Shown here in pieces: positions 8,899 through 26,379 of a stretch of DNA of 64,000 nt. The translations under genes were made by a program, and so were the position numbers. The notes beneath the pieces are model-generated. The model saw only the letters and a program-made list of their open reading frames with translations. It was not told the origin of the DNA and made no database searches. The number at the start of each line of letters is the position of its first letter. Position 1 is the stretch's first letter. Source of the DNA: Turneriella sp. (lineage in GTDB: Bacteria; Spirochaetota; Leptospiria; Turneriellales; Turneriellaceae); contig JABARV010000002.1 of the NCBI GenBank assembly GCA_019186965.1, forward strand, positions 316,737-380,736, written 5' to 3'.

Positions 8899-8936
8899 AC
8901 CAGTTCTAGGGAGTCGTCGCCTTAAATCGGAGTGCG

Positions 8937-9638: not shown

Positions 9639-10399
9639 TTTTTCTCCATTTCCACTACGCAGAGGACATTAGCCCGGGCGGCAGGTTGAGCCTGGGGCAA
9701 GGAAGTTGGCTTCGCCACAAGCCTCACATCCTCCCCCGTTGAGATTCTGAGCCCCAGAAAATACTCTTCGCTTCTTTCCTTTACAACGCTTTCCGTAAGC
9801 CATGATTGCGGCATGACTGCGCAGCGGTCTTGAGAGTTGCCGAGACAGGTGTCGCTATAAATCAATGAGTAGGCGAACGTTGATGTCCAGATGATGTTCT
9901 TATCCCGCAGACCCGGAAAGTTTTCTTCGCCGTTAAATTTTGCCTCCGGTTTCGTACAGCTGGATATAGATTCTTCGGTTAGCCCGGGTTTCTGGAGTAT
10001 CATGCTCAGCTGCCTTTCCGATAAACCAGCGGTCGTCTTTTCTACGCGGAAATCGAAAGAACCCCCGCCACAGGTGACCAAACTCCAGTAAGCTTCATTG
10101 CGCTTCGGGAGCCTGAATTTTTTGCCCTCATAGCTTATTGCATTGCATGCAGCTTTGGCCTCTTGATAGGTTAAGAGCGAGCTATCACCGGTGCATCTGA
10201 CCGGATCAGTACCGATGACGCACTTTTGCCATACTAAATTGTTGGCTCGGTCGAAGATGAATTGATTTTCGAGCGGTACGAATTCGGGACGCCGGACCAT
10301 GGAGGAACAACTCATCAAAGCGACTAAGCTGACTAAACCGGTATACCGGTAGATTGCCCGATTTACCATACCTTTAATGTTGTGTTTTCGTTCGTTCAT
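9635..10399 (-). CDS. DUF1566 (Lcl-like) lipoprotein
   Basis: 254 residues from the ATG at 10399, which has a GAGGGG ribosome site; an upstream in-frame ATG at 10447 lacks one. A hydrophobic stretch ends in LVALMSC, a lipobox. The mature part carries the DUF1566/Lcl C-terminal pattern: VWQKCVIG, a CTGD segment, TYQEAKAACNAI, KFRLPKRNEAYWSLV and a late WTSTFAYS. Members of this family are secreted or surface lipoproteins, some with collagen-like stalks; none is present here. It overlaps the next gene by 4 bp. The 248 bp upstream, to the propeller gene, show no convincing gene. Confidence 0.75.
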   Translation of the reverse strand: MNERKHNIKGMVNRAIYRYTGLVSLVALMSCSSMVRRPEFVPLENQFIFDRANNLVWQKCVIGTDPVRCTGDSSLLTYQEAKAACNAISYEGKKFRLPKRNEAYWSLVTCGGGSFDFRVEKTTAGLSERQLSMILQKPGLTEESISSCTKPEAKFNGEENFPGLRDKNIIWTSTFAYSLIYSDTCLGNSQDRCAVMPQSWLTESVVKERSEEYFLGLRISTGEDVRLVAKPTSLPQAQPAARANVLCVVEMEKK

Positions 10400-10647
10400 T
10401 ATATTCCCCTCAAGTGTATTTTTTTTCAATTCTGTAATCGCGATCATGACGCCGTTAGCCTGTGGAGCACTTCGGGTGTCTATTTCTGCATATACTAATA
10501 GTGCCTTTAGCCCCGGAAACTTTCGCTTTTTTTGATATGCTTAAAAGATTTCGCCCTATTAGATCGAATAAATAGCCTTTAAGGGCTGTGGTTACCACTG
10601 CATGCATTTGGTGCCGCCTCAAAGACTCTTTCGACAGATTTACCATA

Positions 10648-11571
10648 TCAGAATTTAGCATCATTTACAGTCGCGCCACCCAGCCCATTCGCTGTCGTTC
10701 TATTGGAAAACGTACTTGCATAGTCATTCGATATCGACAGGCCATTACTCGTCGAAATGAGGACGACATTGCTTGAAGCGATAATCCTTTGAACAAAATT
10801 ATGCGCCAACCCATTGGTCGTGTTGCGATTCGTAAAAGTTTGACCATCGTCCGAACTTACGGAAATTCCATTATCGGTAGTCCCGATATAGAGTTTTCCG
10901 CAATTCTTGATCAACCAACTGACATTATTCGACGCAAGTCCGTTGGCTGTAGTTCTACAAGAAAACGAAGAGCCATTATCCGTGGAAATACAGACACCGC
11001 CTCCATTTGTAGCCACAAATAATTTAGTGCCATCGTGAAAGCTCGATGCTACCCAATTATTTCCAAGACCATTAGCAGTCGTCTTATTAGAGTACGTATT
11101 GCCGCCGTCAGACGAAATTGAGAGGCCACCTAAGGTAGCGGCAAATAATTTGCCTAATGCACTGGTCGCGCTTAAAACAGCGTTATTTCCTAAACCTTGG
11201 CTGGTCGTCCTATTTGAATAAGTTGCGCCACCATCCGTGGTGATTGACAGTCCGCCCGCCGTGGAAACATACATTGTGCCCCCGTTCAGCAGAACTGAAT
11301 AAACTGTGTTCGCTGCAAGGCCGTTAGCTGTCGTCTTATTTAAAAATGACGTACCTGAATCTGAGGAAATAGAAAATCCACCAGATGTAGCAGCATAAAC
11401 AGTCGAATAACTGGGATTTGCCGTACACGTAGCCACTGTAGAACCATTTCCGAGTGTACTTGAATTATCGGATGATTCAGTTGATGGGTTACGCGCAGAC
11501 TGAACCACACACCCGGAGATTATTGCCAATATCAGAATTAACGAAATGTATTTGAGCCAGTTAGACAACAT
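10648..11571 (-). CDS. Asp-box (BNR-like) beta-propeller lipoprotein
   Basis: 307 residues. The leader ends in the lipobox IISGC (Cys21) and is followed by a Ser/Asn-rich linker. Six copies of a roughly 42-residue repeat follow, each with the Asp-box form S-x-D-x-G-x-S/T-F/Y and the tail TTANGLxxNxV. This predicts a six-bladed propeller on the cell surface. Sequence identity among blades is high, so the gene may expand or contract by recombination. It is the first gene of the envelope cluster, with ribosome site AGGAGGG and a TATAAT box at 11621-11626. The ligand cannot be inferred. Confidence 0.8.
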   Translation of the reverse strand: MLSNWLKYISLILILAIISGCVVQSARNPSTESSDNSSTLGNGSTVATCTANPSYSTVYAATSGGFSISSDSGTSFLNKTTANGLAANTVYSVLLNGGTMYVSTAGGLSITTDGGATYSNRTTSQGLGNNAVLSATSALGKLFAATLGGLSISSDGGNTYSNKTTANGLGNNWVASSFHDGTKLFVATNGGGVCISTDNGSSFSCRTTANGLASNNVSWLIKNCGKLYIGTTDNGISVSSDDGQTFTNRNTTNGLAHNFVQRIIASSNVVLISTSNGLSISNDYASTFSNRTTANGLGGATVNDAKF

Positions 11572-11620
11572 AAAACCCTCCTGTTGCCAGATTCAGCCGA
11601 TGAGCACCTTCCGGCATATA

Positions 11621-11626
11621 ATTATA
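11621..11626 (-). promoter_or_regulatory. TATAAT box upstream of the envelope cluster
   Basis: A consensus TATAAT on the minus strand lies 50 bp upstream of the propeller gene. The -35 region (TTTATC, 17 bp away) is weak. It would let the antisense cassette 3 be transcribed independently. Confidence 0.4.
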
Positions 11627-11793
11627 ACACAGTGGAATGAAAAGATAAAAACTTGCGCTTTTTTTAACAGGCCATGTTGAAAATCCACATGGCGGTTTGT
11701 TAAATTGCAACACCCTAATTCAGGGTAAATGATCGCCCAAGAGTGCCTTGCGTCGCCATGGATGGCGACGAAGTACGCAGGCGCAATTATTTC

Positions 11794-12125
11794 ACACAAC
11801 GCGGAATTTACCTGACGTTTGGTGACGCAAGTGTCATTATTTCAGCCTGTAAAGCCTATTTGCGTCACCAAATGTGCGTGAAGCGCCTGCCTGAGGAGCA
11901 CAAAACAAGCGTCCCGCTTGTGCTTTGTCCGCGATCTTCTGGCGCGCAGGGCCGTGACCGAAACGATTGCGCAGCAATCGTGAGGTCTCCGTCTTCGGTG
12001 CACGCGCGACGAGTCTTCGCGACCAAAGCGATTTCACAGAAATCGCGAGGTCTCTGTCCTCAGAGTCTCCGTCTTCGGTGGAGCCACGGCACCGCAGCGA
12101 GCGCAGCAGGTAAATTTTGTTGTGC
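11794..12125 (+). repeat. attC-like recombination element C (332 bp)
   Basis: Inverse core ACACAAC (11794-11800), 5-nt spacer GCGGA, L'' ATTTACCTG (11806-11814), perfect 13-bp stem (11818-11830 with 11860-11872), hairpin CAAGCG/CGCTTG around TCC (11906-11920), further stems, L' CAGGTAAAT (12107-12115), 3-nt spacer, core GTTGTGC (12119-12125). Apart from its ends it is close to identical to element A 7.3 kb away. A hairpin with stem GTCGCCAT/ATGGCGAC (11752-11769) flanks it. The stretch 11572-12142 therefore holds a promoter, this element and no gene. Confidence 0.65.
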
Positions 12126-12142
12126 GAAGTTAATGCTTCGGA

Positions 12143-14104
12143 CTAGCCCATGACAGGTCTTGGTGCGGTTTGCCCGAAATCTCTTACGAAACGGGTCGTA
12201 GAAACCTGTTTGTTTAACCGCGGATTCGCACTTATATTCATTTTCAAAGCTACCACACCAGGCAACCATATGAATGAGCTGACGATCAACCTGCCTGGAT
12301 ATTCTGATTCCGAAGACTTACAACGTGTAATAGCAACATAAAATAACCGTCTCTGCTCCTCAATAAGCCGCTTAGTCTTTTGGGAGTCAGAACCTTCCGG
12401 AATGAACGGAATTAGCTCATCGATCATTGACATAAGTATTACAAATTTAGCACTCAGCCCTTTCGATGCATGCAAACTCATAATACGAACGTGATCAATT
12501 TCTTCCGGAGAATCTGGGAGCGCAATTTTTTCAGTCAAGGCTGACATGATTGAGGCAAACCAATCCTGAATATCATCTACATCTTTTGTTTCTGGTCTTG
12601 GCGTCGTAGCTATAAGACTTTGGTAAATGGATTTTAATTCATAAAAATCTACCTCTTGGTCGTCACTCTTAATAAAATGCTCAAATAAGGTATCCGGGTC
12701 ATCTTGGAGGTGTCCTCGAAGGGCTGTGAGATCAGCCAGTATTTTCCTGTATTCTTCAATGACGGTGGTTAAACCCGTCATACTCAAGCTACCACCTAAT
12801 AGAGAGTCTAACAGGTCTCGTACTGAAATATTCCTTGCAGATGCTTCTTGGAAAAGTTTCTTGTATTGGTTCTTCCTAAAGTCTGCAGAGCCAGCCCCAA
12901 TCAAGTATCGAAGGGAAATTTTGTCTTGCGGTGCGGAAAGTAGGTGCAACAATGAATAGGCCTTTCGGACCTCAGGATTCTTTATGACGCTTTCCCTAAA
13001 GTATGATTTCACGGGAATTTGTTCGACCAACAACCTGTCCCGGAGCTTGTAACCGATAAGACGCCTAGGGGCTAATACTAAGATGTCACCTGGTTTTACT
13101 TGGCCTTTTTGAAGTTCGTCCTTTATTCTATTGATGATACCTTCTAGTTCCTTCTTGTCATCACCCCATTGAATAATCTCAACGATGCCTTCCTGATTAG
13201 CTTCATATGGGGTTAGTTTACCTAATGAACGATTCGTGTTCTTTGAGATTAACTCTGAGGCCATCTTAGTTACTTGCTTGGGGCATCGACGAATTGTATC
13301 AAACGGTATATCAGTATGAGAGCCATAAAGTGTATCAATTTCCTTGATGCCTTCGGGGTGAGCATTTTTGAAGCTATAAATTGACTGATCATCATCGCCG
13401 ACAATCAGGATGCTCGATCGCCCTCGTATAACGCGGATGAATTCTTGCTCTGCTTTATTTAGATCTTGATATTCATCTACCAATAAATGGGAGAACTTAC
13501 CGATTTCTGTCGATGCTGGATTTTCAATTAAGTATCTCAACGCGAGATGAATTACTTCCCCCACCATGACCCCATTGTGTTCCGTTAGCCAATCAACGAT
13601 GCGCTGCTCAAATTCAATTTCTACTTCATCGCGTGGTATTGCAGGATTTTCAGATTGAAGGGTTGCCCAAGCTGCCAAGTATGATTGGAGAAGCGCCCAC
13701 CTCTCCTTCACGCCAGACCCATCGGGGAAATCTATATCCCGAATAGCTGGTTCAATTTCATGGTCAATAATCATACGCGGATTTCTTTTGGTATAATCTT
13801 TGACTTCTTGCTTTCCGAGAATAGCCATAGCGTGAGCGTGCACAGTACGGGCGATGACCTTGTCCGCACCCGTAACATTAATGCTTGAAATTTCTTTTTT
13901 CAAATCTGCGGCTGAAGTGCGCGTGAATGTAATGGCTAAAATTGTTTCCGGGTCAGTACCTTCCTCTAAGAGTCGAGTAATACGCTTCTTAATACCAAAA
14001 CTCTTCCCCGAACCAGGTCCTGCCAAAGATCGGATTACTGAATCATTGCAGCTTGCAAGCTTGTACGCTGCAGAGTCTTTTGTTAAGTTATCATCCCAAG
14101 GCAT
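12143..14104 (-). CDS. UvrD/Rep-family superfamily 1A DNA helicase
   Basis: 653 residues. Helicase motifs in order: Walker A AGPGSGKS (28-35), TFTRTSAADLKKEI (Ia), LLVDEYQDLNKAEQ (II), GDDDQSIYSFKNA (III), a central IRRCPK (IV), SLHASKGLSAKFVI (V) and RRLFYVAITRCK (VI). All catalytic residues are present, so it should be an ATP-driven 3'-5' single-strand translocase. It is shorter than housekeeping UvrD or PcrA (about 720 residues) and stands alone in its cassette. Relatives of this size occur in defence systems such as Gabija, but no GajA-like nuclease is adjacent, so a defence role is only possible. Ribosome site AGGAGATT ends a few bases before the ATG, 24 bp from element D. Confidence 0.9.
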   Translation of the reverse strand: MPWDDNLTKDSAAYKLASCNDSVIRSLAGPGSGKSFGIKKRITRLLEEGTDPETILAITFTRTSAADLKKEISSINVTGADKVIARTVHAHAMAILGKQEVKDYTKRNPRMIIDHEIEPAIRDIDFPDGSGVKERWALLQSYLAAWATLQSENPAIPRDEVEIEFEQRIVDWLTEHNGVMVGEVIHLALRYLIENPASTEIGKFSHLLVDEYQDLNKAEQEFIRVIRGRSSILIVGDDDQSIYSFKNAHPEGIKEIDTLYGSHTDIPFDTIRRCPKQVTKMASELISKNTNRSLGKLTPYEANQEGIVEIIQWGDDKKELEGIINRIKDELQKGQVKPGDILVLAPRRLIGYKLRDRLLVEQIPVKSYFRESVIKNPEVRKAYSLLHLLSAPQDKISLRYLIGAGSADFRKNQYKKLFQEASARNISVRDLLDSLLGGSLSMTGLTTVIEEYRKILADLTALRGHLQDDPDTLFEHFIKSDDQEVDFYELKSIYQSLIATTPRPETKDVDDIQDWFASIMSALTEKIALPDSPEEIDHVRIMSLHASKGLSAKFVILMSMIDELIPFIPEGSDSQKTKRLIEEQRRLFYVAITRCKSSESEYPGRLIVSSFIWLPGVVALKMNISANPRLNKQVSTTRFVRDFGQTAPRPVMG

Positions 14105-14127
14105 CGAATCTCCTAAGCATTAATTTC

Positions 14128-14351
14128 GCACAACGTGGAATTTACCCGACGTTGATGGTGCGCCACACAATAAAGCCGGGCTTATTTGAAAAGCCACATA
14201 CTAAGCACCATCAATGTGCCGTAGGCCACTCGCGGCAAAGCACAAAACAAGCGTCCCGCTTGTGCTTTGTCCGCGATCTTTGTGGCCGGAGTGCCGAGCA
14301 CGCGAGGAGCCACGGCACCGCAGCGAGCGCAGCGGGTAAATTTTGTTCTCT
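14128..14351 (+). repeat. attC-like recombination element D (224 bp)
   Basis: Inverse core GCACAAC (14128-14134), 5-nt spacer GTGGA, L'' ATTTACCCG (14140-14148), 10-bp stem (14152-14161 with 14205-14214), long hairpin CAAAGCACAA/TTGTGCTTTG (14236-14245, 14260-14269) around the CGTCCCG core, L' CGGGTAAAT (14333-14341), 3-nt spacer, core GTTCTCT (14345-14351). The perfect hairpin GCCCGGCC/GGCCGGGC with loop ATGGAG follows (14371-14392). The L'' and L' arms differ from those of A and C in the same way on both sides, so pairing is kept. Confidence 0.65.
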
Positions 14352-14430
14352 GACGTAGTTGCGCCTGTGAGCCCGGCCATGGAGGGCCGGGCGACTATAG
14401 ACGAGATCATTTATATAAAATGGCTTTTTG

Positions 14431-14462
14431 TGGACTCTGTACTATGGTACAGGCCATAGCTT
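14431..14462 (+). promoter_or_regulatory. MerR-type promoter/operator 1
   Basis: TGGACT, then the near-perfect dyad CTGTACTATGGTACAG (14437-14452), then a TAGCTT -10-like box about 20 bp from the -35. The long spacer filled by a dyad is the signature of promoters activated by MerR proteins through DNA distortion. It drives the small membrane protein gene at 14497. Confidence 0.75.
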
Positions 14463-14496
14463 CGACTCAACTCACTTTGTAGGAGGAGCATATACT

Positions 14497-14721
14497 ATGC
14501 AAACAACCAGCGAATCTAAAAAATCGAAAATCCAAGTAGCGCGGCGCATTCTACTGGGTCTGCTCTGTTGCGCGATACCCCTGTCGATACATCTCAACCG
14601 CGAGACTTCAGAGAGCGGTTTGTTGCAACTATTATCGCCGCTAAAGGGGCACATTTTAGTTTTGGGGCTTTTGCTTCTATTAGTGCTCTGGCCACGTTTG
14701 AAGTCCGGGAGAAAACGATAA
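14497..14721 (+). CDS. Small mer-operon membrane protein
   Basis: 74 residues with ribosome site AGGAGGA before the ATG. Two hydrophobic helices are predicted: RRILLGLLCCAIPLSI, which carries a Cys-Cys pair, and GHILVLGLLLLLVLWP. A cysteine pair in a membrane helix next to a MerR-type promoter suggests a small mercury transport or accessory protein in the style of MerF or MerE. The sequence is not a clear match to either, so the specific role is inference. The second MerR-type promoter begins just after its stop. Confidence 0.65.
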   Translation: MQTTSESKKSKIQVARRILLGLLCCAIPLSIHLNRETSESGLLQLLSPLKGHILVLGLLLLLVLWPRLKSGRKR

Positions 14722-14726
14722 TTTTT

Positions 14727-14759
14727 TTGGACTCTGTACCATACTACAATGTTTAACTT
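14727..14759 (+). promoter_or_regulatory. MerR-type promoter/operator 2
   Basis: TTGGACT, the dyad region CTGTACCATACTACAA (14734-14749) and a TAACTT box at about 20 bp spacing. The motif is shared with promoter 1. It lies 30 bp ahead of the MerTP gene. Confidence 0.7.
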
Positions 14760-14789
14760 AAACCAGATCAAATTTCAAAGGAGATTCGT

Positions 14790-15413
14790 ATGGAAGATAA
14801 ATCTGCATCAAACAAAACACTTTGGGCTGCTTTACTGGTCGGGACAGCAGCCTCACTCTGCTGTCTCACCCCCGTTCTGGGCATTTTAGTGGGGATTGGC
14901 GGGATCGCCTCAATATTTTCGTGGATCGAGCCGGCGAGGCCTTATCTGATTGCGCTGACGCTTGGGATACTGGCGTTTGCCTGGTATAAAAAGCTAAAGC
15001 CCGTGAGGGGCGGGGAAATCGAGTGTGCGTGTGAAACCGACGAAAAACCAGCCTTCTGGCACAGTAAAGTTTTTCTGGCGATCATTTCAGTAGCGGCAGT
15101 GCTGCTATTAACTTTCCCGTCGTATTCGGGAATATTTTTCCGATCTGCCAAAGCGACACCGCTTATAATTGAAAAGGAAAATATTGCCATGGCAACACTT
15201 TCGATTCAGGGTATGACCTGTTCCGGCTGTGAACAGAGTGTCAATAAAGCGCTGAAGGATAAACCGGGCGTGATTGAGAGCAGCTCGGACCATCTGCGCG
15301 GCCTCGCATGGGTTAAGTATGACAAATCCCGAATCGGGTTTGAGGAATTTCGTAACGCCGTCGAAAAAACTGTTGGCTACAAGGTCATAGATATTCAAGG
15401 AGGCATGAAATGA
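14790..15413 (+). CDS. merTP: MerT-MerP fusion, mercuric ion transporter
   Basis: 207 residues in two parts. The first is MerT-like: three predicted membrane helices, a Cys-Cys pair in helix 1 (C24, C25 in SLCCLTPVLG) and a cytoplasmic Cys-x-Cys (C79, C81 in IECACETD). After another helix comes a MerP/heavy-metal-associated domain with GMTCSGCE (C144, C147). The protein would hand Hg(II) from the outer face through the membrane to cytoplasmic MerA. Separate merT and merP genes are usual in proteobacteria; fusions are known in other phyla. Ribosome site AAAGGAG. It overlaps merA by 4 bp (ATGA), so the two are translationally coupled. Confidence 0.92.
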   Translation: MEDKSASNKTLWAALLVGTAASLCCLTPVLGILVGIGGIASIFSWIEPARPYLIALTLGILAFAWYKKLKPVRGGEIECACETDEKPAFWHSKVFLAIISVAAVLLLTFPSYSGIFFRSAKATPLIIEKENIAMATLSIQGMTCSGCEQSVNKALKDKPGVIESSSDHLRGLAWVKYDKSRIGFEEFRNAVEKTVGYKVIDIQGGMK

Positions 15414-17068
15414 ATCATAAAAACGTTGAAGTACAGATCGCGGGCATGACCTGCGATCATTGCGCTATCTCGATTGAGAAACTGCTGACAAAACAGGTTG
15501 GTGTAGTTTCCGCGGCTGTTGAATATCCCAGCGCTCGTGGGATTGTTACTTACGACTCGGCTAAGACTGACGAAGGTAAAATCATCGAGGCAATAAACGG
15601 CACGAAAAACTATCATGCAAATGTCGCTGTGCCCGCTACAGTGCCGTCAGACGGTTCGAAAAATTTCGATCTCATCATTATCGGCGGCGGTTCGGCGGCA
15701 TTCTCGGCGGCGATCAAGGCAGAAGAACTGGGAAAAGCCACTCTTATGATTAACGCGGGCCTCAATTTTGGAGGCACCTGCGTCAACGTCGGTTGTGTGC
15801 CGTCAAAAACGCTGATTCGGGCAGCAGAGTCGGTGCATCACGCGAATAGCTCCCGTTTTGCTGCTATAAAACCGCGCGGTGCGACCGTCGATTTTACTCA
15901 GCTTATTCGGGACAAAAAAGTGCTGGTAGCTCAGCTACAGAAGAATAAATATCTGGATGTAGTAGAGGATTTCGCCCGGCTGACGATGATAACTGGCTGG
16001 GCGCGGTTAATCGATTCCAACAGCGTTCAAGTCGACGGGAATCAGATTTATTCCGCGCAAAAAATCCTGATTGCGACGGGATCAACTACGAAAATTCCGG
16101 ATATTTCCGGCCTTGCGGAGATTGATTATCTGACGCACAGAACGCTTTTTGATCTCGAAGAAAAACCCGCAAGTCTGACCATCATGGGGGCAGGCTATAT
16201 CGGGCTCGAAATTGCGATGGCATACAATCGACTCGGAGTAAAGGTGAGGATCATCGAGTTTACCGATCGCGTGTTGAGAACTCAGAGTGAAGACATTAGC
16301 GCCGAACTTGAACAAGCGATGCGCTCAGAAGGAATTGAGATTCTCCCGAATTTCCGGGCCATAAAATTTGAGAAACGCGAGGCGGAGGTAATTATTCACT
16401 GTAAGTGCAAAGACGGCAGCATGACACAAATCAGGGAACGGGGCAGAGTTCTTGTGGCTTCTGGTACGCGCCCCAATACCGCGAAGCTCGGCATTGAGAC
16501 CGTAGGTTTAGAAACAGATGCGAGTGGTCATATAAAAGTCAACGACCAAATGGGAACGAATGTTCCGCACATTTATGCTGTGGGGGACGTCGCGAACACC
16601 CCACCCTTTGTTTATACCGCCGCCTACGAAGGGCGCCTTGCCGTAGAAAATGCTTTCACCGAAACCGTAAACCGTGCTGATTACACTGCGCTGCCTTGGG
16701 TCGTTTTCACCGACCCGCAAGTTGCCGGCGTTGGTATGGACGAAATGCAGGCAGCACAGGCCGGATTACCCTACGATGTTTCAAAGCTGGAACTCACGAA
16801 TCTACCGCGTGCGATTGTCGCAAATGATACCCGCGGCTTCATCAAGCTGATTCGCCACCGGGAAACGGATCGCTTGCTCGGTGGCCGCATTGTAGCATCT
16901 GAAGGCGGCGAGCTGGTGCAGTCTCTGGCGTTTGCAATCAAATTCGGCATTACGGTCAAACAATTATCCGAAGAACTCTATCCGTATCTGACGCTCAGTG
17001 AAGGGCTTAAGCTTGCCGCCATCGGTTTTCGCAAAGACGTGAAAAAGCTGAGCTGCTGTGCGAGTTAG
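15410..17068 (+). CDS. merA: Mercuric reductase MerA
   Basis: 552 residues. An N-terminal metal-binding domain (AGMTCDHC, C15 and C18) precedes a full flavoprotein disulfide reductase: FAD site IIIGGGSAAF (about 89-98), redox pair GGTCVNVGCVPSK (C124, C129), second nucleotide site IMGAGYIGLEIA, late FAD motif HIYAVGDV, and the MerA-specific C-terminal cysteine pair SCC (C549, C550). It reduces Hg(II) to volatile Hg(0) with NADPH in the cytoplasm. All residues needed for activity are visible. It sits directly behind MerTP, its presumed ion source. Confidence 0.97.
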   Translation: MNHKNVEVQIAGMTCDHCAISIEKLLTKQVGVVSAAVEYPSARGIVTYDSAKTDEGKIIEAINGTKNYHANVAVPATVPSDGSKNFDLIIIGGGSAAFSAAIKAEELGKATLMINAGLNFGGTCVNVGCVPSKTLIRAAESVHHANSSRFAAIKPRGATVDFTQLIRDKKVLVAQLQKNKYLDVVEDFARLTMITGWARLIDSNSVQVDGNQIYSAQKILIATGSTTKIPDISGLAEIDYLTHRTLFDLEEKPASLTIMGAGYIGLEIAMAYNRLGVKVRIIEFTDRVLRTQSEDISAELEQAMRSEGIEILPNFRAIKFEKREAEVIIHCKCKDGSMTQIRERGRVLVASGTRPNTAKLGIETVGLETDASGHIKVNDQMGTNVPHIYAVGDVANTPPFVYTAAYEGRLAVENAFTETVNRADYTALPWVVFTDPQVAGVGMDEMQAAQAGLPYDVSKLELTNLPRAIVANDTRGFIKLIRHRETDRLLGGRIVASEGGELVQSLAFAIKFGITVKQLSEELYPYLTLSEGLKLAAIGFRKDVKKLSCCAS

Positions 17069-17077
17069 GCAACCAGA

Positions 17078-17278
17078 ATGATAAAGGTGAGGCGCCTGAA
17101 CGGCAAAGTCTTTTACCTGAACCATAATCTGATCGAGACGATCGAGGACACACCGGATACAGTGGTCAAGCTCACAAATGGAACAAAGTACGTTGTGCGC
17201 GACGGTGCGGATGCATTGCTTGAAAGGGTTATTGCGTTTAATCGACAGATTTTTGCCGAAAAAATGCGGACAGAATAG
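17078..17278 (+). CDS. FlbD/SwrD-like small protein in the mer operon
   Basis: 66 residues matching the flagellar FlbD/SwrD family along its length: MIKVRRLNGKVFYLN, LIETIEDTPDTVVKLTNG, KYVVRDG, then a charged C-terminal helix. In spirochaetes and Firmicutes the gene normally sits in the flagellar operon before motA, and the Bacillus homologue boosts flagellar power. Here it lies 9 bp after merA and before merR, far from any flagellar gene in the window. It may be a captured duplicate or a family member reused in metal stress; the sequence cannot decide. The ribosome site is weak. Confidence 0.8.
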   Translation: MIKVRRLNGKVFYLNHNLIETIEDTPDTVVKLTNGTKYVVRDGADALLERVIAFNRQIFAEKMRTE

Positions 17279-17359
17279 TACCGATGGTGATGCCAACGGG
17301 TGTTATGCGGTGAAAAAATTGTTTGATTTGCCGCGCGCCTTTCACAATGGGGGATAAGT

Positions 17360-17749
17360 ATGACGACCGGAAAATTAGCCGAGAAGTTCAAGATCAATCG
17401 CGAGGCAATACGCTTCTACGAACGAAAGGGCTTACTGCCCAAACCGGAGCGCACCGCCACGGGTTACAGATTGTACGACGTGAGAGCGGAAAAAACCTTA
17501 TCGTTCATTCTAAACTCGAAAAAGCTGGGCTTCACGCTTGCAGAAATAAAATCCCTGCTATCCTTACGAATTGTAAACGGAGAGAATTGCTCGACGATCC
17601 GTATCAAAGCGCAGCGGAAGATTGAAGATATCGAAAACAAGATTCACCAACTCGGAAGTTTGAAAAAAGCCCTATCGTTGTTGGTTGAATCGTGTCTTAA
17701 AAAACAGACTTCGACTTACTGTCCAATTATAGACAACCTGGAGAACTGA
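17360..17749 (+). CDS. merR: Mercury-responsive regulator MerR
   Basis: 129 residues. An N-terminal winged helix (TTGKLAEKFKINREAIRFYERKGLL) is followed by a dimerisation helix and metal loop. Three cysteines C77, C112 and C121 have spacings of 35 and 9, the same as the Hg(II)-binding C82, C117 and C126 of Tn501 MerR. This marks a genuine mercury sensor rather than another MerR-family regulator. It should repress and, with Hg(II), activate the three dyad promoters in this cassette. It is co-directional with merA instead of divergent as in Tn501, with an 81-bp gap after the FlbD-like gene and ribosome site GGGGGAT. Confidence 0.93.
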   Translation: MTTGKLAEKFKINREAIRFYERKGLLPKPERTATGYRLYDVRAEKTLSFILNSKKLGFTLAEIKSLLSLRIVNGENCSTIRIKAQRKIEDIENKIHQLGSLKKALSLLVESCLKKQTSTYCPIIDNLEN

Positions 17750-17755
17750 AAATTG

Positions 17756-17789
17756 TTTTGGACTCTGCATTATAGTAGTCTGGTATATG
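17756..17789 (+). promoter_or_regulatory. MerR-type promoter/operator 3, no gene downstream
   Basis: TTTTGGACT followed by the decayed dyad CTGCATTATAGTAG and a TATATG box about 19 bp from the -35. It starts 7 bp after the merR stop. No open reading frame of useful length follows before element E, unlike promoters 1 and 2. Confidence 0.6.
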
Positions 17790-17897
17790 TGCCCGCTCTG
17801 CGGATGAAGTAATCAGGTTTGCACAGGCCCGAAAGGGTCGGTGTTTATCGGCAGCTACTTCGGGAAAGCCAGATAGGTCAAGTCGAAAGACATGTGA
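17790..17897 (+). ncRNA. Candidate structured transcript after promoter 3
   Basis: Outer stem GAAGTA/TACTTC (17806-17811 with 17856-17861) encloses a hairpin with stem CAC-GGCCC / GGGTC-GTG capped by a GAAA tetraloop (17822-17843). A second GAAA-capped stem follows (17878-17897). Two GNRA loops and a multibranch fold immediately downstream of a MerR-type promoter suggest an RNA gene or leader. A 5' fragment of a group II intron is an alternative. This is a reading of base pairing only. Confidence 0.3.
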
Positions 17898-17971
17898 GAA
17901 GGACATTCTTATTCGGCCGTCTAAAGTGCGCCGCCATGGAGGGCGGCGGATAACAAAGGCGCAACTATGTC

Positions 17972-18093
17972 AGAGAACTCCTTTTCTACGTATTGCGTTT
18001 AATCTTACCCGTCAAGGTAATTTTAGATTAAAGTATGAGATATTATACGTATAATGTTAGTTTACGCAATGTTTTACGTATATATTGTTGGGT
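17972..18093 (+). repeat. attC-like recombination element E (122 bp, AT-rich)
   Basis: Inverse core AGAGAAC (17972-17978), 5-nt spacer TCCTT, left arm with TACGTATTGCGT, inner stem TTTAATCT/AGATTAAA, palindrome ATTATACGTATAAT, right arm ACGCAA (then a 5-nt bulge) TACGTA, and core GTTGGGT (18087-18093). Size and form are close to a classical attC, unlike A to D. A hairpin with stem CGCCGCC/GGCGGCG and loop ATGGAG (17929-17948) flanks it on the gene side. Beyond it, 18094-18289 holds short stems but no gene. Confidence 0.6.
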
Positions 18094-18289
18094 ATGGCGT
18101 ATAAGTAGGATGTGGCTGCGTTGCAAACGTGCACATGCCCGCAGCGTTCGATCGTACCGCCTTCAAACACTTTCGCCGCGGTAATTTAAGGTCTATTCCA
18201 ACCAATAGGCTGGCGCCTCTGGGCTAACAGCCGACGGTTGACGGCGCTTGTTTCAACGCCCCACGGAAGCCACAGCTTCGTCAGAAAAT

Positions 18290-18454
18290 TTATGAATTTT
18301 GGGTAATATTTGTCGCAATTCTTTTTCCTTTATCTTCCAGGCCAAATGAGTTTTGCAGGTTGAGCCAAAATTGGGCTGTTGTTCCAAAAAATTTTGATAG
18401 TCGAAGCGCCGTATCCGCGGTAATACTTCTTTTCCTATGAATAATATCACTAAC
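18290..18454 (-). pseudogene. higA: HigA-type antitoxin, N-terminus lost
   Basis: The C-terminal half of a HigA/VapI XRE-family antitoxin: VSDIIHRKRSITADTALRLS, then KFFGTTAQFWLNLQNSFGLE. The recognition helix and everything after it are intact. The usual N-terminal half (family form PGEILREEFL through the first HTH helix) is replaced at 18455 by a structured repeat and cannot be found on its far side. No HigB toxin is adjacent. The antitoxin is therefore a remnant. Confidence 0.85.
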
Positions 18455-18614
18455 AGGCTGTTGAAAAACAGCCCATATAGCAGGGTGTTGGCCGAGCACA
18501 GCCGCAGACAGGCCATTTATGGCCGTTTTGCGAGGGGTTGCTAAGGGCAACCCCGGTCGCTGACTCGACTCGGCGAGCGTCTGCGGCGCACACGGCATTT
18601 TTCAACACCCTGCT
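18455..18614 (+). repeat. Palindromic repeat element inserted in higA
   Basis: Perfect 12-bp terminal inverted repeats AGCAGGGTGTTG/CAACACCCTGCT (18479-18490 and 18603-18614) enclose a second pair GCCGCAGAC/GTCTGCGGC and two inner hairpins, GGCCATTTATGGCC (18511-18524) and GGGGTTGC/GCAACCCC (18534-18554). A small CTGTT-GAAA-AACAG stem lies at its left edge. It has no coding capacity. It resembles a miniature inverted-repeat or REP-like element and marks the breakpoint in the antitoxin gene. Confidence 0.7.
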
Positions 18615-18653
18615 AATTCTCTTGGGGTCAAATCTTGTTGTCTGCACCGTGAC

Positions 18654-19646
18654 TTATTCGATGCCAATAATTTTGGGACGAAATACTTTGTGGAGTAGTT
18701 CGAGGTGGGTGTGTAACCATTCATAATCGTTAGGCCAATTTGATTCATTTGAAATATTTGTCGATTGCCGGAGAAAAAGTCTCGCTGATTTAATGGTTTC
18801 TGGATTGTGCCAATGTAGTTTTATGGGGAATTGAGCATCAATGGCCGATTGATCTTTCTGTAGTTCGCGGAATACTTGCTTGGCATCTGCGGTGTCGATT
18901 TGAAGTTCGGCGCGCACTTCGTTAGATTCATAATTATCTTGCTCGGAATCGTAGAAAGAAGCGATTGCAGCTAGTTTATAGCCACTCTTTCCAATGCTCA
19001 TATTCATCCACGCCTGCGGCAAGGGTTTCGTCGGTCGTAGCACTTTTGAATTTTTGGTCAAGTAGTCTGCGAAACCTTGCCAAAACTTCTGCTGAATTTG
19101 CTTACTTTCTGAGACTTCTGGGCTACCAATGCGTTTTGCCCCTTGATTTACAGATTTCGACCATTCGTTGGGCTTCGATATAACATGGAATTTCGGAGCA
19201 ATTTCGGAGGTACCGATTTGCCAGAGTTCGATTTGGACACCAAAAAAATTGAAATCAGGTAAAGTATTTTCGTTTAACCAGTCAATGGCAGCACGGTGTT
19301 CCTCGGTAAATTCTTTCGTTATCCAGACTATTGTTTTAGCATTTAAACCAGCTGCATAAGTTATTATCTGCCCTAAATGCGTATGGTCTGTCTTTTCCAG
19401 CTGATTCTCGATCAAGACATTGGATTCTGTCGAAAGATCTTTGCACAATAAATCAGCAGAAAAAGGCCCAACATTTTTTTCGCGGGCAACAAACTCAAGG
19501 TCTAAGCCAAGTTCCCGACCAAGTAATTGAAGATTTTCTTCTTGAGCAAGCCACGGTGTAAATGAGCCCGCTTCGGAAGCAAACGCCTTTCTCAAATCAA
19601 TTTTTTCTATTCTACTTAATTTCGGTATCATTACACTTAAAGTCAT
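18654..19646 (-). CDS. DUF4268 / PD-(D/E)XK-type protein
   Basis: 330 residues from the ATG at 19646; an earlier in-frame start would overlap the neighbouring gene. The N-terminal half has the features of a PD-(D/E)XK nuclease-like fold found in DUF4268 proteins: FSADLLCKD, then VLIENQLEKTDHTHLGQII, where the D...ENQ pair occupies the catalytic positions, and WITKEFTEEHRAAIDWLNE. The C-terminal half is the DUF4268 region. Family members are widespread in mobile regions; the substrate is unknown. It is the main gene of cassette 6, with an AAC-ending half-site just upstream. Confidence 0.8.
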   Translation of the reverse strand: MTLSVMIPKLSRIEKIDLRKAFASEAGSFTPWLAQEENLQLLGRELGLDLEFVAREKNVGPFSADLLCKDLSTESNVLIENQLEKTDHTHLGQIITYAAGLNAKTIVWITKEFTEEHRAAIDWLNENTLPDFNFFGVQIELWQIGTSEIAPKFHVISKPNEWSKSVNQGAKRIGSPEVSESKQIQQKFWQGFADYLTKNSKVLRPTKPLPQAWMNMSIGKSGYKLAAIASFYDSEQDNYESNEVRAELQIDTADAKQVFRELQKDQSAIDAQFPIKLHWHNPETIKSARLFLRQSTNISNESNWPNDYEWLHTHLELLHKVFRPKIIGIE

Positions 19647-19650
19647 GTTC

Positions 19651-19657
19651 ACCCAAC
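19651..19657 (+). other. Half core site closing cassette 6
   Basis: ACCCAAC is the exact complement of the core GTTGGGT at 18087-18093 and fits the integron inverse-core consensus RYYYAAC. The L arms and the rest of an attC are missing; the C45 gene ends 6 bp away. It probably marks the right edge of the cassette array, worn by deletion. Confidence 0.45.
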
Positions 19658-19662
19658 ACCTT

Positions 19663-21372
19663 TTATGCGGCGTCGAGTATTGCAAAATTTACTACAACAT
19701 CGCTAAAGTCGCGGCGGGGGAAAAGGCGCCGTGTGTCTTTTTCTGCCTGACGTTTAAGATTCTCGACCGACTCGTGTTGTATTTGGTTTAGCCTATTTCG
19801 TAATTCAGTAGCTTCTTTTTTGGAACCCATCGCATCTGCAGCACGAGACGCCCACAGTAAATTTTGCGCAATATGGAAAGGGGAACCTTCTATAGCAAGT
19901 GCATTTGTAAAATGCTCTAACGCCACACTAAAATTATTTTGTTCAAGCGAAAGCACACCCGAGATAAATGCAAGCGAAGGATCGTCTTTAGCTACGGTAC
20001 GCGCACGCTCTATCGATGCATACACCGTTTCGACAGGCGCTCCTTGGAACTCTTGTAGATACGCATTTTGAAAATTTTTGTATGCTTCGTATTTTTTTCC
20101 TAAACGGTACGGTGCACTCACTTCCGATTTAGCAATTTTCTCTATACCGATAACTTCGGCGGTGTTTCCAGACCAGTCGATTTGGTGTTCTATATACGGC
20201 CCAAAACCTGTGGGAGCTTCTCCGATAGAAAGTGAAATTATGCCAGATTGCAATTTGAACACCACCGACTGCACAGACATGACATGCCCCACAAGAGAAC
20301 CTGCAACGCGGCTTATATGGGGAGAATCAATTTCGTAATCGCTACCCAAAAAATTTTGCATATCTTGTACTGTTGCGCCTCCGCGTTGCTTTACCGAAGT
20401 AAAAAAGGATTGCGCAAGCCGTAAGCGGTCTTTTGTATACGCTGTCCATCCGCCATTAGTTGCTATTTCGCCTTCTTGTAAATCGGGGTGTATATAGTGG
20501 TTCGTTTGCGCAAGGTGTCCATCTTTTGCCCAAGTCACGCGGCATTTTTTTGCGGTTGTTTCGATAAGCGCAGCGTTCTTTTCTTTTGCCGAAGTCACAA
20601 TAATTCCCCATGTTGACGCGATACGTTGCGATGCGACAAGCTCGATTGCATCTGCAATTGTACGCGACTTCTGTATAATTTCATGCCCAAGGTCAATTAC
20701 GCCAAGCGATTTAAAATCCACATCGCGGTGGAATCGTGTATGGAACGCAACGCTCAACCCTTCGGCGTTAAATGCTGTAATTCCGGGTACATCCGCGCCG
20801 CGTGCCCCAATATAACCGTACGGAATGCCTTTATCGGGAGTACAGTAAACTAGTGTAGGATTTTTATCCCATACGCTAACTCCAGGAAAATCAAAATTAC
20901 GCGCATGCATTAGTTCGCCGTCTTTGGAATATGCATTCCACACGGCGGCCGACGTACACGCAGGGATTGCATTTAACCATGCTCGCTCGTTAACATGGAG
21001 CGCTCCAAGGCGTCCTAAAACTCCGATACTGTTTTGGAAAACATCCATGATAAATAGTTGATTGATACCCGTTTTGGGGAGTTTTGCAGCGTCAAGAAGC
21101 GCGGCCTGTCTTTTTGCGTATTCTTCGTTACGGTATTTTGCAAGCGAACCCAAGGCAGATTTCATGAGGTTTGCGGCTAAAAATCGCGCAGGGGCTTTAC
21201 GCGCACGCCGTGGCAATCCACCAACAAGAAGCGATTCTGCCATGCGGGGATAAAAATCGAATAAATCTTTAAACCCACCTACTTGGGATAAAATTTCTCC
21301 ATACTGTGCTCCCATTTGCTGCTGTGTTCCTTTAAGGCGTAAAACAAGCGGCGCATTCATAGAGTATTCCAT
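19663..21372 (-). CDS. C45-family autoproteolytic acyltransferase/hydrolase
   Basis: 569 residues. The central domain matches the peptidase C45 / acyl-CoA:6-aminopenicillanic-acid acyltransferase family. The presumed nucleophile Cys139 in IPACTSAAVWNAYSKDGE is followed by MHARNFDFPG, the usual Asn/Asp-containing motif. In this Ntn-hydrolase fold the chain is cut before the cysteine to expose its amino group. About 150 C-terminal residues form TPR-like helices (ALEHFTNALAIEGSPF). The true substrate is unknown; most such genes are not penicillin-related. The start may be 21372 or the ATG at 21360. It is the first core-like gene right of the island. Confidence 0.82.
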   Translation of the reverse strand: MEYSMNAPLVLRLKGTQQQMGAQYGEILSQVGGFKDLFDFYPRMAESLLVGGLPRRARKAPARFLAANLMKSALGSLAKYRNEEYAKRQAALLDAAKLPKTGINQLFIMDVFQNSIGVLGRLGALHVNERAWLNAIPACTSAAVWNAYSKDGELMHARNFDFPGVSVWDKNPTLVYCTPDKGIPYGYIGARGADVPGITAFNAEGLSVAFHTRFHRDVDFKSLGVIDLGHEIIQKSRTIADAIELVASQRIASTWGIIVTSAKEKNAALIETTAKKCRVTWAKDGHLAQTNHYIHPDLQEGEIATNGGWTAYTKDRLRLAQSFFTSVKQRGGATVQDMQNFLGSDYEIDSPHISRVAGSLVGHVMSVQSVVFKLQSGIISLSIGEAPTGFGPYIEHQIDWSGNTAEVIGIEKIAKSEVSAPYRLGKKYEAYKNFQNAYLQEFQGAPVETVYASIERARTVAKDDPSLAFISGVLSLEQNNFSVALEHFTNALAIEGSPFHIAQNLLWASRAADAMGSKKEATELRNRLNQIQHESVENLKRQAEKDTRRLFPRRDFSDVVVNFAILDAA

Positions 21373-21428
21373 ACTTTATAATCGCTACAAAGGTTTACAG
21401 AGTGTCAATTCTTTAGAAAAATTTTAGT

Positions 21429-22211
21429 TTAATAGTAGTCAGAAAGTAATTGTTCGGCTTCGTTGCGGACCATCGCGCTTTGGCTACGGGTAAGCGTTTT
21501 TAAACGCACCTGCGCTTCGCGTGTTTTTGTACGCGCTAGTTCGCGCATTACAAGTATCAACTCCGAAACTGTTTTACAATGGTAACTACGTTTGTTCAAG
21601 TACGGCCAGGCAACCGCGTCGTCGTACCAGACCAAAGTCCGGTAAATTTCCACAACAACTTGTGGATTTTTTTCGTTAAGCTTAAAGAGAACGGGATAAA
21701 AATATTTTTTCTCGCTACGCTCTTTTTTATAATTGCGTAGTGTACGAAAAGCCGCTTCACGTACCATCCACTCTGTATCGCCCAGCATTGAAGCGACATC
21801 GTCCCTAAAGCTATCGTCTGTACCTAGTTTTTCAATAACTAAAAGTGCCCGCCAACGGATTATTGGGTCTGGATATTTTAAAAAATGACGTGCCTGCGGT
21901 AAAAACTCATCGAGCCCTAACTGGTTTGTAGCAATGAGTGCGCTCACAATAACGGCAGTATCGTCGTCGGCAAGTCCTGAAGCGATTATTTTTTCATCTT
22001 CGCTTGTTGAATTTCCTTTTGCGATATTTTCTATAGTCTCGACCTGGCGTTGCCAATCGAATGAATTATACTCTTCCAGAGTTATTTTGTGGAATTTTTC
22101 ATCTTCGTTGGTTTGCGTCGATTTGCAGCCAAAGGCGTTCATGGCGGTAAACAGCGCCAGCAAAATTGCGTGCGCGACTGTTAAAAAATATCTTTTTTTA
22201 GAAAGTTGCAT
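21429..22211 (-). CDS. HEAT-repeat lipoprotein
   Basis: 260 residues. The leader ends at NAFGC, a lipobox (Cys29). The mature protein is a chain of HEAT-like helical pairs (DPIIRWRALLVIEKLG, TEWMVREAAFRTLRNY, SAMVRNEAEQLLSDYY). It is probably a periplasmic-side scaffold. It lies 56 bp upstream of the C45 gene on the same strand, so co-transcription is likely. Another HEAT protein lies at 24.2 kb. Confidence 0.75.
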   Translation of the reverse strand: MQLSKKRYFLTVAHAILLALFTAMNAFGCKSTQTNEDEKFHKITLEEYNSFDWQRQVETIENIAKGNSTSEDEKIIASGLADDDTAVIVSALIATNQLGLDEFLPQARHFLKYPDPIIRWRALLVIEKLGTDDSFRDDVASMLGDTEWMVREAAFRTLRNYKKERSEKKYFYPVLFKLNEKNPQVVVEIYRTLVWYDDAVAWPYLNKRSYHCKTVSELILVMRELARTKTREAQVRLKTLTRSQSAMVRNEAEQLLSDYY

Positions 22212-22279
22212 TATCTTTTGTTAAATTAAGGTTTCCACACTGACACGAATTGAGGCTTTCCTCCTAAACAATAAACCTT

Positions 22280-22918
22280 ATGTCAATTCAAACTCCACGC
22301 TTTATCGACCAACTGGAACGAAAATACTACCGTTTTGGTATTGAAAACTTGGGACTTATTCTTGTTGTTATGCAAGCTTTCGGGTTTCTTGCGTTCCAAA
22401 TTTCTCCAGATGCGGTATTTAAGTTTGCTTTAATTCCAAAGGCGCTGCTTGCAGGCGAAATTTGGCGGGCAATTACTTTTATAGCGCTCCCTTTAAGTAC
22501 AGGCTTTTGGATTATCATCGTCCTTTTCTTTCTTTATTGGATTATGCAAATTATAGAAGAAGCGTGGGGGCCTTTTAAAACTACGCTTTATTTTTTCATT
22601 GGCCTTGTTTTTTCAATTATTTATTCAATTGCAACAGGATATCCTATCACAACATTTATGCCCTTAGAAATGTCTCTTTTTTTTGCAGTAGCGGCGCTCT
22701 ACCCCACAACGCAAGTGCTCTTGTTTTTTATTATACCCGTACCTCTATGGATTTTAGGAGTTTTCCAAGCGGTCATCGTCATTTTTATTATGCTCTCGAG
22801 CGACTGGTTAACGCGAGGATATTACGCTGTTGTCTATTTAAATTATTTTCTTTTTTTTGGATTACACCACTACAAACAACTACAACAACGGATGCGCCGT
22901 AACACGTGGCGGGGTTAA
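22280..22918 (+). CDS. Rhomboid-like membrane protein lacking the protease motif
   Basis: 212 residues with five or six predicted membrane helices. The GEIWRAITFIALP segment and EEAWGPFKTTLYFF match the first loops of rhomboid and derlin-type proteins. The catalytic GxSG serine motif and the partner histidine are absent: LEMSLFF occupies the serine region. If it belongs to the superfamily it is a pseudoprotease, perhaps a membrane chaperone. It is divergent from the HEAT lipoprotein and overlaps the YceI gene by 13 bp. Confidence 0.6.
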   Translation: MSIQTPRFIDQLERKYYRFGIENLGLILVVMQAFGFLAFQISPDAVFKFALIPKALLAGEIWRAITFIALPLSTGFWIIIVLFFLYWIMQIIEEAWGPFKTTLYFFIGLVFSIIYSIATGYPITTFMPLEMSLFFAVAALYPTTQVLLFFIIPVPLWILGVFQAVIVIFIMLSSDWLTRGYYAVVYLNYFLFFGLHHYKQLQQRMRRNTWRG

Positions 22919-23520
22919 GCTTGAAATTTGTGCGACAACTCGTAAAAACCAACATATTTGTTATTTTTCTTTTCTCTACCGCTCTTTTTGCGCGTGTCGA
23001 ATGGTACGATATCGACTATACAAAATCGCAAATTACTTTTTTGGGAAAATCTCGTGTAAGTAGCGCAAACGGCATTTTTCGTAAATGGAATTTTTCTGGA
23101 AAAATCACCTCCAGTTTTCACGTCTCTGGAGATATTCTCATCGATTGCGCGTCGATTGATACCGACAACGAACGGCGCGACAAACACCTTAAAAGTTCCG
23201 ATTTTTTTGATTGTGAAAAATTTCCACAGCATACCTTTCGCATCCGCTCTGTTACGCCCAACGATAAATCGGCAAAAACTGCCACCCAGTTTATTGTCGT
23301 TGGCGCTTTAACGATGCACGGCGTTACGCAGAACGTCGAACTTACCCTACAGCGCGACGAAAACGGCAACAGTATTACACTCTCAGGAAGCGTAATGTTA
23401 AACCGTGAAGATTTTGGTATAACCTACAACAGCCTTCTTAACCCCATCGAAAAAAATATCCGTGTACGTGTAGTACTCAACATAAAACTGCGCACCAACA
23501 AAACTCCTTATGGCCCTTAA
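22906..23520 (+). CDS. YceI-family protein
   Basis: 204 residues from GTG. A hydrophobic leader (about 14-30) precedes a YceI lipocalin-like domain: WYDIDYTKSQITFLGKS, FSGKI, FDCEKFPQHTFRI, LTMHGVTQNVELTL, REDFGITYN. Family members bind polyprenoid or other amphipathic ligands in the periplasm. It overlaps both neighbours on the plus strand (13 bp upstream, 11 bp downstream), so a three-gene operon is likely. A start a few codons later (TTG at 22921) is also possible. Confidence 0.82.
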   Translation: MAGLSLKFVRQLVKTNIFVIFLFSTALFARVEWYDIDYTKSQITFLGKSRVSSANGIFRKWNFSGKITSSFHVSGDILIDCASIDTDNERRDKHLKSSDFFDCEKFPQHTFRIRSVTPNDKSAKTATQFIVVGALTMHGVTQNVELTLQRDENGNSITLSGSVMLNREDFGITYNSLLNPIEKNIRVRVVLNIKLRTNKTPYGP

Positions 23521-24208
23521 GAATCGTGCACTGCGCTATGTAGCCTCTTTAATAGTTGTTCTTGCGGTTATCGCGTATTGGGTGCTACGCCCTATACGCA
23601 ATACAGATTTTTCCTTAGGCGAATTTACTGTATTACGCGACGATGTACTCGCCGCAAAGTACGCACCACGCATTCTACCGCATGCCACGTATGGCGCTCC
23701 GACGCGCCTTTTTTATCGCATGGGAAAAAATAGCGAAAACAGAGTGTTTATCGCATACCATCCCTTTTTTGAAGACGAAATAAATCCGCATTCGGGCTTT
23801 GGAGCAACTATCAATCGCCTTGTTTACACAGGCGGGCTACGGCTCAAAGATTTTATTTTTGGTGCCGCCGACATTGAACTTATCGAAGTTATTTTGGATA
23901 AAAATTTATACCCCAAAAAAATCGCTTGGGAAGGCGCCGAAAATTATCAACCGAAAAATTTTGGCGTAAAGCATAAACCCGAAGCAAAAGACAACCCTAC
24001 AGTGCCTTTTTGTTTTGCAATTACAACATGGAACCACATGTTTAAAAACATGGATAGCTCCGCATGCAGCAACACCCAACCTTTAAAAGTCGAATACTTT
24101 AGCACACCCCTTTGGGAAAAATATTCTATGACGAAAGAAACCGAAGCAATTTTACGCCGCAACCGTGCGCACCGTATTTACGAACGTGTCGCGGTAAAAA
24201 ATGAATAG
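23510..24208 (+). CDS. Membrane-anchored protein of unknown function
   Basis: 232 residues. One N-terminal membrane segment (YVASLIVVLAVIAYWVL) is followed by a mainly beta-looking soluble domain with YGAPTRLFYR, FIAYHPFFEDEINPHSGFG and FCFAITTWNHMF. No family is recognised. Its start overlaps the YceI gene by 11 bp, so translation is probably coupled. It converges on the HEAT gene, with 3 bp between them. Confidence 0.65.
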   Translation: MALKNRALRYVASLIVVLAVIAYWVLRPIRNTDFSLGEFTVLRDDVLAAKYAPRILPHATYGAPTRLFYRMGKNSENRVFIAYHPFFEDEINPHSGFGATINRLVYTGGLRLKDFIFGAADIELIEVILDKNLYPKKIAWEGAENYQPKNFGVKHKPEAKDNPTVPFCFAITTWNHMFKNMDSSACSNTQPLKVEYFSTPLWEKYSMTKETEAILRRNRAHRIYERVAVKNE

Positions 24209-24211
24209 TTA

Positions 24212-24886
24212 TTATTTTTTATCTGGAACGCGAATCGCCTGCAGCGCTTCTTGCGCCGCTTCTTTTACGCTATCGTCGTAACGCGATTGCAAAACTTTAA
24301 GAAGCGGAATAAACGATTTACGTTCTTTTACCACCGCTAATGTAAGGCAAATTTCACGCAAAGCTTTTTCGTTTTTATTATCGTTTTGGAAGTTTGCCAA
24401 ATAGCGATTTACCTGTGCGATTAGTGCAGGGGCAATCAATGTTGTTTCACTCTCTTTGGTAAAAACGCGTAAAGAGTGTGCGCAGGCAAAAACTACAGAA
24501 GGCATAGTTTCGTCTTGGAGTTTTTTAGTAACCGCCAACACAAGGTGTGGTGCCATTTGCGATTCGTTAAAAACAAAAACCGCCTTACAAGCAGCTTCGC
24601 GTACATCTGGAGCTGGATGGAGAAGCCCTTGCTGAATGCCTTCGAGAAATTTTGGTGACACCAATTCTGCGTCTTTGGGAGACTGTTTATATAAAACAGC
24701 CATTTTTTCGAGTGCACGTACTTTTGCATAGCGCAACGTTTCGCTATCGCGCACTACTTTAACGAGTAAATCTGTATGGCGTAAATCGTAATCGCGAATG
24801 CGGTCTAAAATTTCTGGCCTTGCGGAATCGGCATAGAGTGCGCTAAAAGTAATAGCGCACACGAAAATAGTTAATATTTTTTTCAT
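24212..24886 (-). CDS. Secreted HEAT-repeat protein
   Basis: 224 residues. A cleavable signal peptide ending at SALYADS precedes helical repeats (AKVRALEKMAVLYKQ, APDVREAACKAVFVFNE, DDSVKEAAQEALQAI) of HEAT type. It is probably a periplasmic protein-interaction scaffold. Its start overlaps the stop of the two-helix membrane protein by 4 bp, which suggests joint translation. Confidence 0.72.
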   Translation of the reverse strand: MKKILTIFVCAITFSALYADSARPEILDRIRDYDLRHTDLLVKVVRDSETLRYAKVRALEKMAVLYKQSPKDAELVSPKFLEGIQQGLLHPAPDVREAACKAVFVFNESQMAPHLVLAVTKKLQDETMPSVVFACAHSLRVFTKESETTLIAPALIAQVNRYLANFQNDNKNEKALREICLTLAVVKERKSFIPLLKVLQSRYDDSVKEAAQEALQAIRVPDKK

Positions 24887-25488
24887 TCGCTCAAATTTTT
24901 TTCTGTATCTTGCTTATTTTCGCGGCGGTGCATTGCACGGTTTATGAGTATCGCAAGATCGTCGAAGTTATCGTTTTTGCGCAACTTAATATCGGTAAAT
25001 TCTCCTGTTGCAAGATACTGGTTAAGAAGTTTTTTTATTTTAAACACGGGGCCTGCCATCTTGTGTGAAAAAAACAAACTATAAATTAAAATAATGAGGA
25101 TATTAAGTACAGTAATAACAACCACTGGCCAAATATAGAGGTTGAACGCGTTGTAAAATTTGTACCCCCCTGAGGCGACTTTTAGCGGAAAATATTCTTC
25201 TCCTTCGCCATCGGGAACAACCACCCATTTTCCATTATTATCTTTTTTTAGGTTCTGGTGGTTGTCTACATCCATTTGCGCCAAAACCGACGCGCCATCG
25301 GGAAGAAGGCTATACGCTTTGTTTTTTAGCGCAAAAAGAGCGCAGATAATGATAGTTGCCGACAATGCGACAATTATAGAATAGCGTAGCATAAACTTAC
25401 TTTGGAAGCGCTTGTCGATAAAATACTTACGCTGCCAAAAGTGTGGTTTTTTACCTTCGGTTTGTTCGCCTGCTGCCATAGGGTGCAT
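24883..25488 (-). CDS. Two-helix membrane protein with HAMP-like tail
   Basis: 201 residues. Helices at about 35-55 (YSIIVALSATIIICALFAL) and 118-140 (WPVVVITVLNILIILIYSLFF) flank a 60-residue extracytoplasmic part. The cytoplasmic stretch SHKMAGPVFKIKKLLNQY, ending in a DDLAILINRA helix, resembles the HAMP linker that joins sensor domains to their outputs. No output domain follows, so it may relay signals by dimer interaction. It lies 22 bp downstream of mqnA on the same strand. Confidence 0.65.
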   Translation of the reverse strand: MHPMAAGEQTEGKKPHFWQRKYFIDKRFQSKFMLRYSIIVALSATIIICALFALKNKAYSLLPDGASVLAQMDVDNHQNLKKDNNGKWVVVPDGEGEEYFPLKVASGGYKFYNAFNLYIWPVVVITVLNILIILIYSLFFSHKMAGPVFKIKKLLNQYLATGEFTDIKLRKNDNFDDLAILINRAMHRRENKQDTEKNLSE

Positions 25489-25510
25489 TCCTAAGCGACA
25501 AATGTGCCGG

Positions 25511-26293: not shown

Positions 26294-26379
26294 AAGCCGT
26301 TACACGAATGTGAAACGCACAGTAACTCCAAAATGTACCCGCTTTACGGCGTATTGCGTCGATGGTAATTCGGCAATGC

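Follow-up and report, generated by a model that had tools for sequence, protein, structure and literature searches.

The analysed window, a 64-kb stretch of a 3.08 Mb Turneriella sp. genome, carries a mercury resistance operon enclosed in an integron-type gene cassette (Table 1). Its products include MerA, MerT/P and MerR, the first two scoring over the cut-offs of their family models and the third finding its best family under the cut-off. The search for relatives gave one distant locus (40% identity) of no help for MerA among the genome contigs and, beyond the two cassette copies described below, 43% at best for MerR among 393 genomes of the phylum. The FlbD-like gene (PF06289, 17078-17278) lying between merA and merR is an unusual component of such an operon.

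Table 1. Features of the mer cassette, its surroundings and the related arrays (window coordinates unless a contig is given; C1 and C14, contigs of the source genome; G005, second Turneriella-type genome).
Feature	Position	Strand	Remarks
Integron-like arrays	source genome C1:300000-334714 (window 1-17978), C14:3000-36497; G005:C1 about 3470000-3668000		attC-like sites about 185-217 bp
Integron-type gene cassette with mer operon (whole mobile unit)	14131-17978		3848 bp; genes opposite to cassette direction
attC-like site of mer cassette	14132-14347	-	R''/L''...L'/R' order on minus strand; AAC..TTTACCC...GGGTAAA..GTT; imperfect palindrome fold
Promoter P1	14431-14461	+	perfect dyad CTGTAC-TATG-GTACAG
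74-aa ORF behind P1	14498-14721	+	start ATG 14498; no Pfam match
Promoter P2	14728-14758	+	
merTP fusion	14790-15413	+	NF033556, 240 bits, over cut-off
merA, mercury(II) reductase	15410-17068	+	TIGR02053, 491 bits, over cut-off
FlbD-like small protein	17078-17278	+	PF06289, 93.5 bits
merR	17360-17749	+	TIGR02051, 118 bits, best family, below cut-off of 151
Promoter-like P3	17756-17789	+	-35-like TGGACT 17759-17764; 19-base spacer with decayed dyad; -10-like TATATG 17784-17789
Non-coding cassette end behind P3	17790-17926		137 bases up to element E; no gene or RNA family
Element E	17927-17978		outer arm of the cassette's attC-like palindrome plus small hairpin; 25-nt arm pairs with 14345-14369
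attI-like site	17979-18016		no adjoining recombinase gene; same exact 20-mer only here and by the C14 recombinase

The whole unit was found in the second Turneriella-type genome with a single mismatch over 3848 bp (position 17667, in merR; 99.97% identity). The identity ended at AAC on both sides, which places GTT borders at the two cassette ends, and the flanks were unrelated between the two genomes apart from shared attC-family repeats. Other loci shared by the two genomes, sampled from window positions 18000-27000, were mostly only ~66-71% identical; hence the mer unit moved recently. In the window the canonical cassette direction runs on the minus strand; the mer genes are therefore reversed and need promoters of their own.

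Element E, proposed in the sequence-only reading, proved to be real, with five further copies in the genome. Its part at 17954-17978 is complementary to 14345-14369 (inverted repeat, 92%), and in the fold predicted for the joined cassette ends, which correspond to an excised circle, both arms lengthened the attC-like palindrome to one continuous stem. The sequence TCCTTTTCTACGTATTGCGT to the right of 17978 has one other exact occurrence in the genome, on contig C14, between the end of another array and a gene pointing away from that array, which encodes a tyrosine recombinase of 408 aa; no recombinase gene was present beside the copy in the window. Because TCCTTTTCTACGTATTGCGT also separates the array from the recombinase on C14, the mer cassette is the attI-proximal cassette of its array and presumably the latest one acquired. 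An origin of the attI-like site in the window by misassembly from C14 was rejected, the flanks being only ~83% alike. Further to the right (18451-18615) lies a short palindromic MITE-like repeat with the ends TAACAGGCTGTTGAAAAA/TTTTTCAACACCCTGCTA, of which contigs C2 and C3 hold 96% identical copies, less similar ones being present elsewhere.

The array of G005, which includes the mer unit, comprises ~151 junctions of the AAC..TTTAC...GTAAA..GTT type with a median spacing of ~1.0 kb, and the R''-L''-L'-R' palindrome is shared across it. The end arms belonging to the same cassette matched each other at 16.5 of 25 positions on average, compared with 11.3 for the arm of the neighbouring cassette. 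Within the genus, five of the seven genomes contained attC-like sites, as did one genome from a different genus in the family. On C14 the recombinase gene lies ~70 bp from the attI-like 20-mer, i.e., recombinase, attI-like site and array are adjacent there; the G005 homologue (42%) is encoded 10-15 kb beyond the end of its array, and homologues occur in other members of the genus too. The recombinase scored 178 bits with the integron-integrase model TIGR02249, below the cut-off of 265, and in its alignment to IntI4 (2a3v) a segment of 69 residues in IntI4 was matched by 28, so that it appears to lack the IntI-specific insertion. The arrays are thus integron-like in their sites, yet by this test not an IntI integron, and recombination by this enzyme is predicted: they seem to be run by an Xer-like recombinase devoid of the IntI insertion. 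Among the neighbouring genes, the cassette next to the mer unit in the window encodes a UvrD/GajB-like helicase in the normal cassette direction (12143-14104, minus strand), and the G005 array near the mer cassette encodes a reverse transcriptase with the best match to the PADLOC RT_III-A class (L018:5941-7053).

Behind merR, six bases after its stop codon (17747-17749), the 12-mer TTTTGGACTCTG (17756-17767) opens the promoter-like segment P3. The 12-mer occurs four times in the genome, twice inside the mer cassette (P2 and P3). P3 was the top match to P2 on either strand of the window, with 24 of 30 positions identical (background for such 30-position matching across the window: mean 7.8, sd 2.4), and both segments start only a few bases past the stop codon of the gene before them. 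The mer-type motif at this place is therefore real. Mer promoters of the MerR type have a 19-base spacer, and the hexamers TGGACT and TATATG of P3, weak in themselves, are separated by exactly this distance. The core between them reads CTGCAT-TATA-GTAGTC. Its half-sites agree with the CTGTAC-N4-GTACAG dyad at four and three of six positions, respectively, and are complementary to each other at one position out of six, in comparison to six in P1 and four in P2. The description of P3 as a third MerR-type promoter thus held for the overall likeness and the spacing but not for the operator dyad, which has decayed.

The claim that P3 is followed by no gene was confirmed: between P3 and element E no ORF with a ribosome-binding site was found. 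A Shine-Dalgarno sequence and an ATG are located 62-67 bases downstream of TGGACT at P1 and P2; P3 has neither. The open frames behind it, on both strands, matched no protein family and no peptide family. The mini-ORF MCPLCG at 17787 was rejected, as it overlaps the -10-like hexamer and would not be transcribed from P3; the 59-codon minus-strand ORF (17727-17906) and the open plus-strand frame at 17779-18051, neither with a family match, were taken as chance. Inspection of seven loci with MerR relatives revealed no gene-less mer operator behind merR. The stretch behind P3 had no other copy in its own genome and was absent from 99 other genomes except for the copy transferred with the whole mer cassette; searches against plasmids gave short chance matches only, and the exact motif was absent from viral contigs.

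The sequence-only reading also saw in this region a GNRA-rich structured stretch with an outer stem and two GAAA-capped hairpins, and asked for a search of structured-RNA families. The folding analysis gave a different picture. The predicted energy for 17783-17900 was -33.0 kcal/mol versus -30.5 in shuffles (z -0.74), and the neighbouring intervals 17783-17897 and 17796-17926 gave z of -0.6 and -1.4, so the full stretch gains no stability over its shuffled versions; no fold signal was seen on the opposite strand either. The subregion 17806-17860 reached z -2.5, a weak value given that it had been picked by eye, and z -2.8 obtained on extension to 17978 probably reflects the strong hairpin that element E contains. 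The predicted fold did not show the described outer stem with its two GAAA hairpins; only the hairpin GGCCC-GAAA-GGGTC was stable. Two GNRA hairpins with stems of at least three pairs arose in ~3% of shuffles (P = 0.03), which is a marginal enrichment. Rfam returned no relevant family at the gathering thresholds or at E <= 10 with lax filters.

These data bear on several alternative readings of the stretch. A group II intron 5' fragment, which GTG at 17788 together with the GNRA hairpins might recall, is extremely improbable, since the Rfam group II models gave no match even under the lax settings, the 5' end GTGCC departs from GUGYG, and the genome contains no second copy. It is unlikely that P3 drives a mercury-induced small RNA of ~130-180 nt that ends in or near the hairpins and has its target in trans or in the mer mRNA. 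The preserved left half and spacing of P3, the one stable GAAA hairpin with its weak terminator-like tail and the slight GNRA excess would suit such an RNA; the unexceptional fold, the lack of an Rfam match or of any diverged homologue, the decayed P3 dyad and terminator-like sites no commoner than in shuffles argue against it. The same hairpin, when followed by GGTGTTTATC, scored as terminator-like, in agreement with the stretch being simply where a merTP-merA-merR transcript ends, with a 3' untranslated region and a weak terminator, the likeness of P3 to a promoter being incidental. We consider this improbable too: such sites show no excess over shuffled sequences, and the 24/30 match between P3 and P2 stands far above the background.

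The position of P3 raised another question, since it points at the cassette border. In the excised circle the order on the strand of P3 is element E, attC and P1, and P3 might act as an outward promoter across the border, either through attC towards P1 in the circle or into the neighbouring site, affecting recombination or the expression of neighbours. This, too, seems unlikely: no convincing plus-strand gene was found within 4 kb downstream in the window, and the neighbour differs in G005, which leaves no fixed target. Still more doubtful is the specific case of a working mercury-responsive promoter whose transcripts cross the border at which the mer cassette recombines (in the excised circle, through attC). 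If P3 did work in this way, mercury itself would alter how an integron-type cassette is transcribed, and perhaps how it recombines, the cassette being moved by an Xer-like recombinase that is not an IntI.

Altogether, P3, which resembles P2 most, is probably a decayed mer promoter copy without a gene, left on the attI side at the edge of the mobile mer cassette. Among the three options offered in the sequence-only reading (small RNA, broken former cassette gene, intron fragment), the lack of a Shine-Dalgarno sequence and ATG and the decayed dyad agree best with a broken former gene, or with a promoter copy that had no gene from the outset. The cassette borders, the attC/attI-like context, the similarity of the promoters, the decayed dyad and the absence of a gene or RNA family were seen directly in the sequence. 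A gene that once stood behind P3 may, as we infer, have disappeared as the cassette end arose, or a promoter segment may have been duplicated without its gene. The 137 bases between P3 and element E would then be ordinary non-coding sequence of a cassette end. MerR presumably no longer activates P3. Some activity, MerR-dependent or constitutive, is possible in view of the -10-like TATATG and the largely retained left half-site, and any transcript would be short, running through element E into the attI-like site, probably with no specific function. Against the relic speak the slightly enriched GNRA hairpins and the z value of the subregion chosen by eye. Both known copies of the stretch, from two genomes, are practically identical, and sequence variation does not separate drift from constraint.

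The gene-less P3 is probably a relic, and greater weight attaches to its setting. As judged from the borders and arms, the whole mer operon travels as one cassette of an integron-like array: a complete inducible mercury-resistance operon packed as a single mobile cassette, passed nearly intact between two Turneriella-type species and sitting in arrays of up to ~150 cassettes for which an Xer-like recombinase without the IntI insertion seems to be responsible. If confirmed, this would mean that cassette capture of the integron-like type is possible without the IntI-specific domain. A paper from 2013 singled out Treponema as the sole clade of spirochaetes in which integrons had been found (PMC3607928). 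A later study modelled attC sites of Spirochaetes, its main text naming neither Leptospira nor Treponema (PMC8352920), and the paper on the Turneriella parva genome is silent on both integrons and mercury (PMC3746428). The large integron-like array in Turneriella-type spirochaetes is apparently undescribed. No description of a mer operon as an integron cassette was found in the open-access literature, where absence is not proof of novelty.

Compared with the operator/promoter of the Tn501/Tn21-type mer systems, P3 shares the -35-like TGGACT, the 19-base spacing and the CTG half-site, but its right half-site has decayed and it serves no gene. The operon also differs from that type by three tandem sites and by merR being co-directional with merTPA instead of divergent. 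The R''-L''-L'-R' palindromes, the GTT borders, the stacking of cassettes at an attI-like site and the recombinase gene read away from the array resemble the chromosomal integrons (superintegrons) of Vibrio and Treponema. Unlike these, the system described here relies on a predicted Xer-like recombinase without the IntI-specific insertion, has attC arms reaching ~25 bp into the cassette, and carries a whole mer operon reversed with respect to the cassette direction. The Tn21-type mercury transposon likewise combines mer genes with an integron in a single region. There, however, the operon is located next to the integron, whereas here it is itself a cassette.
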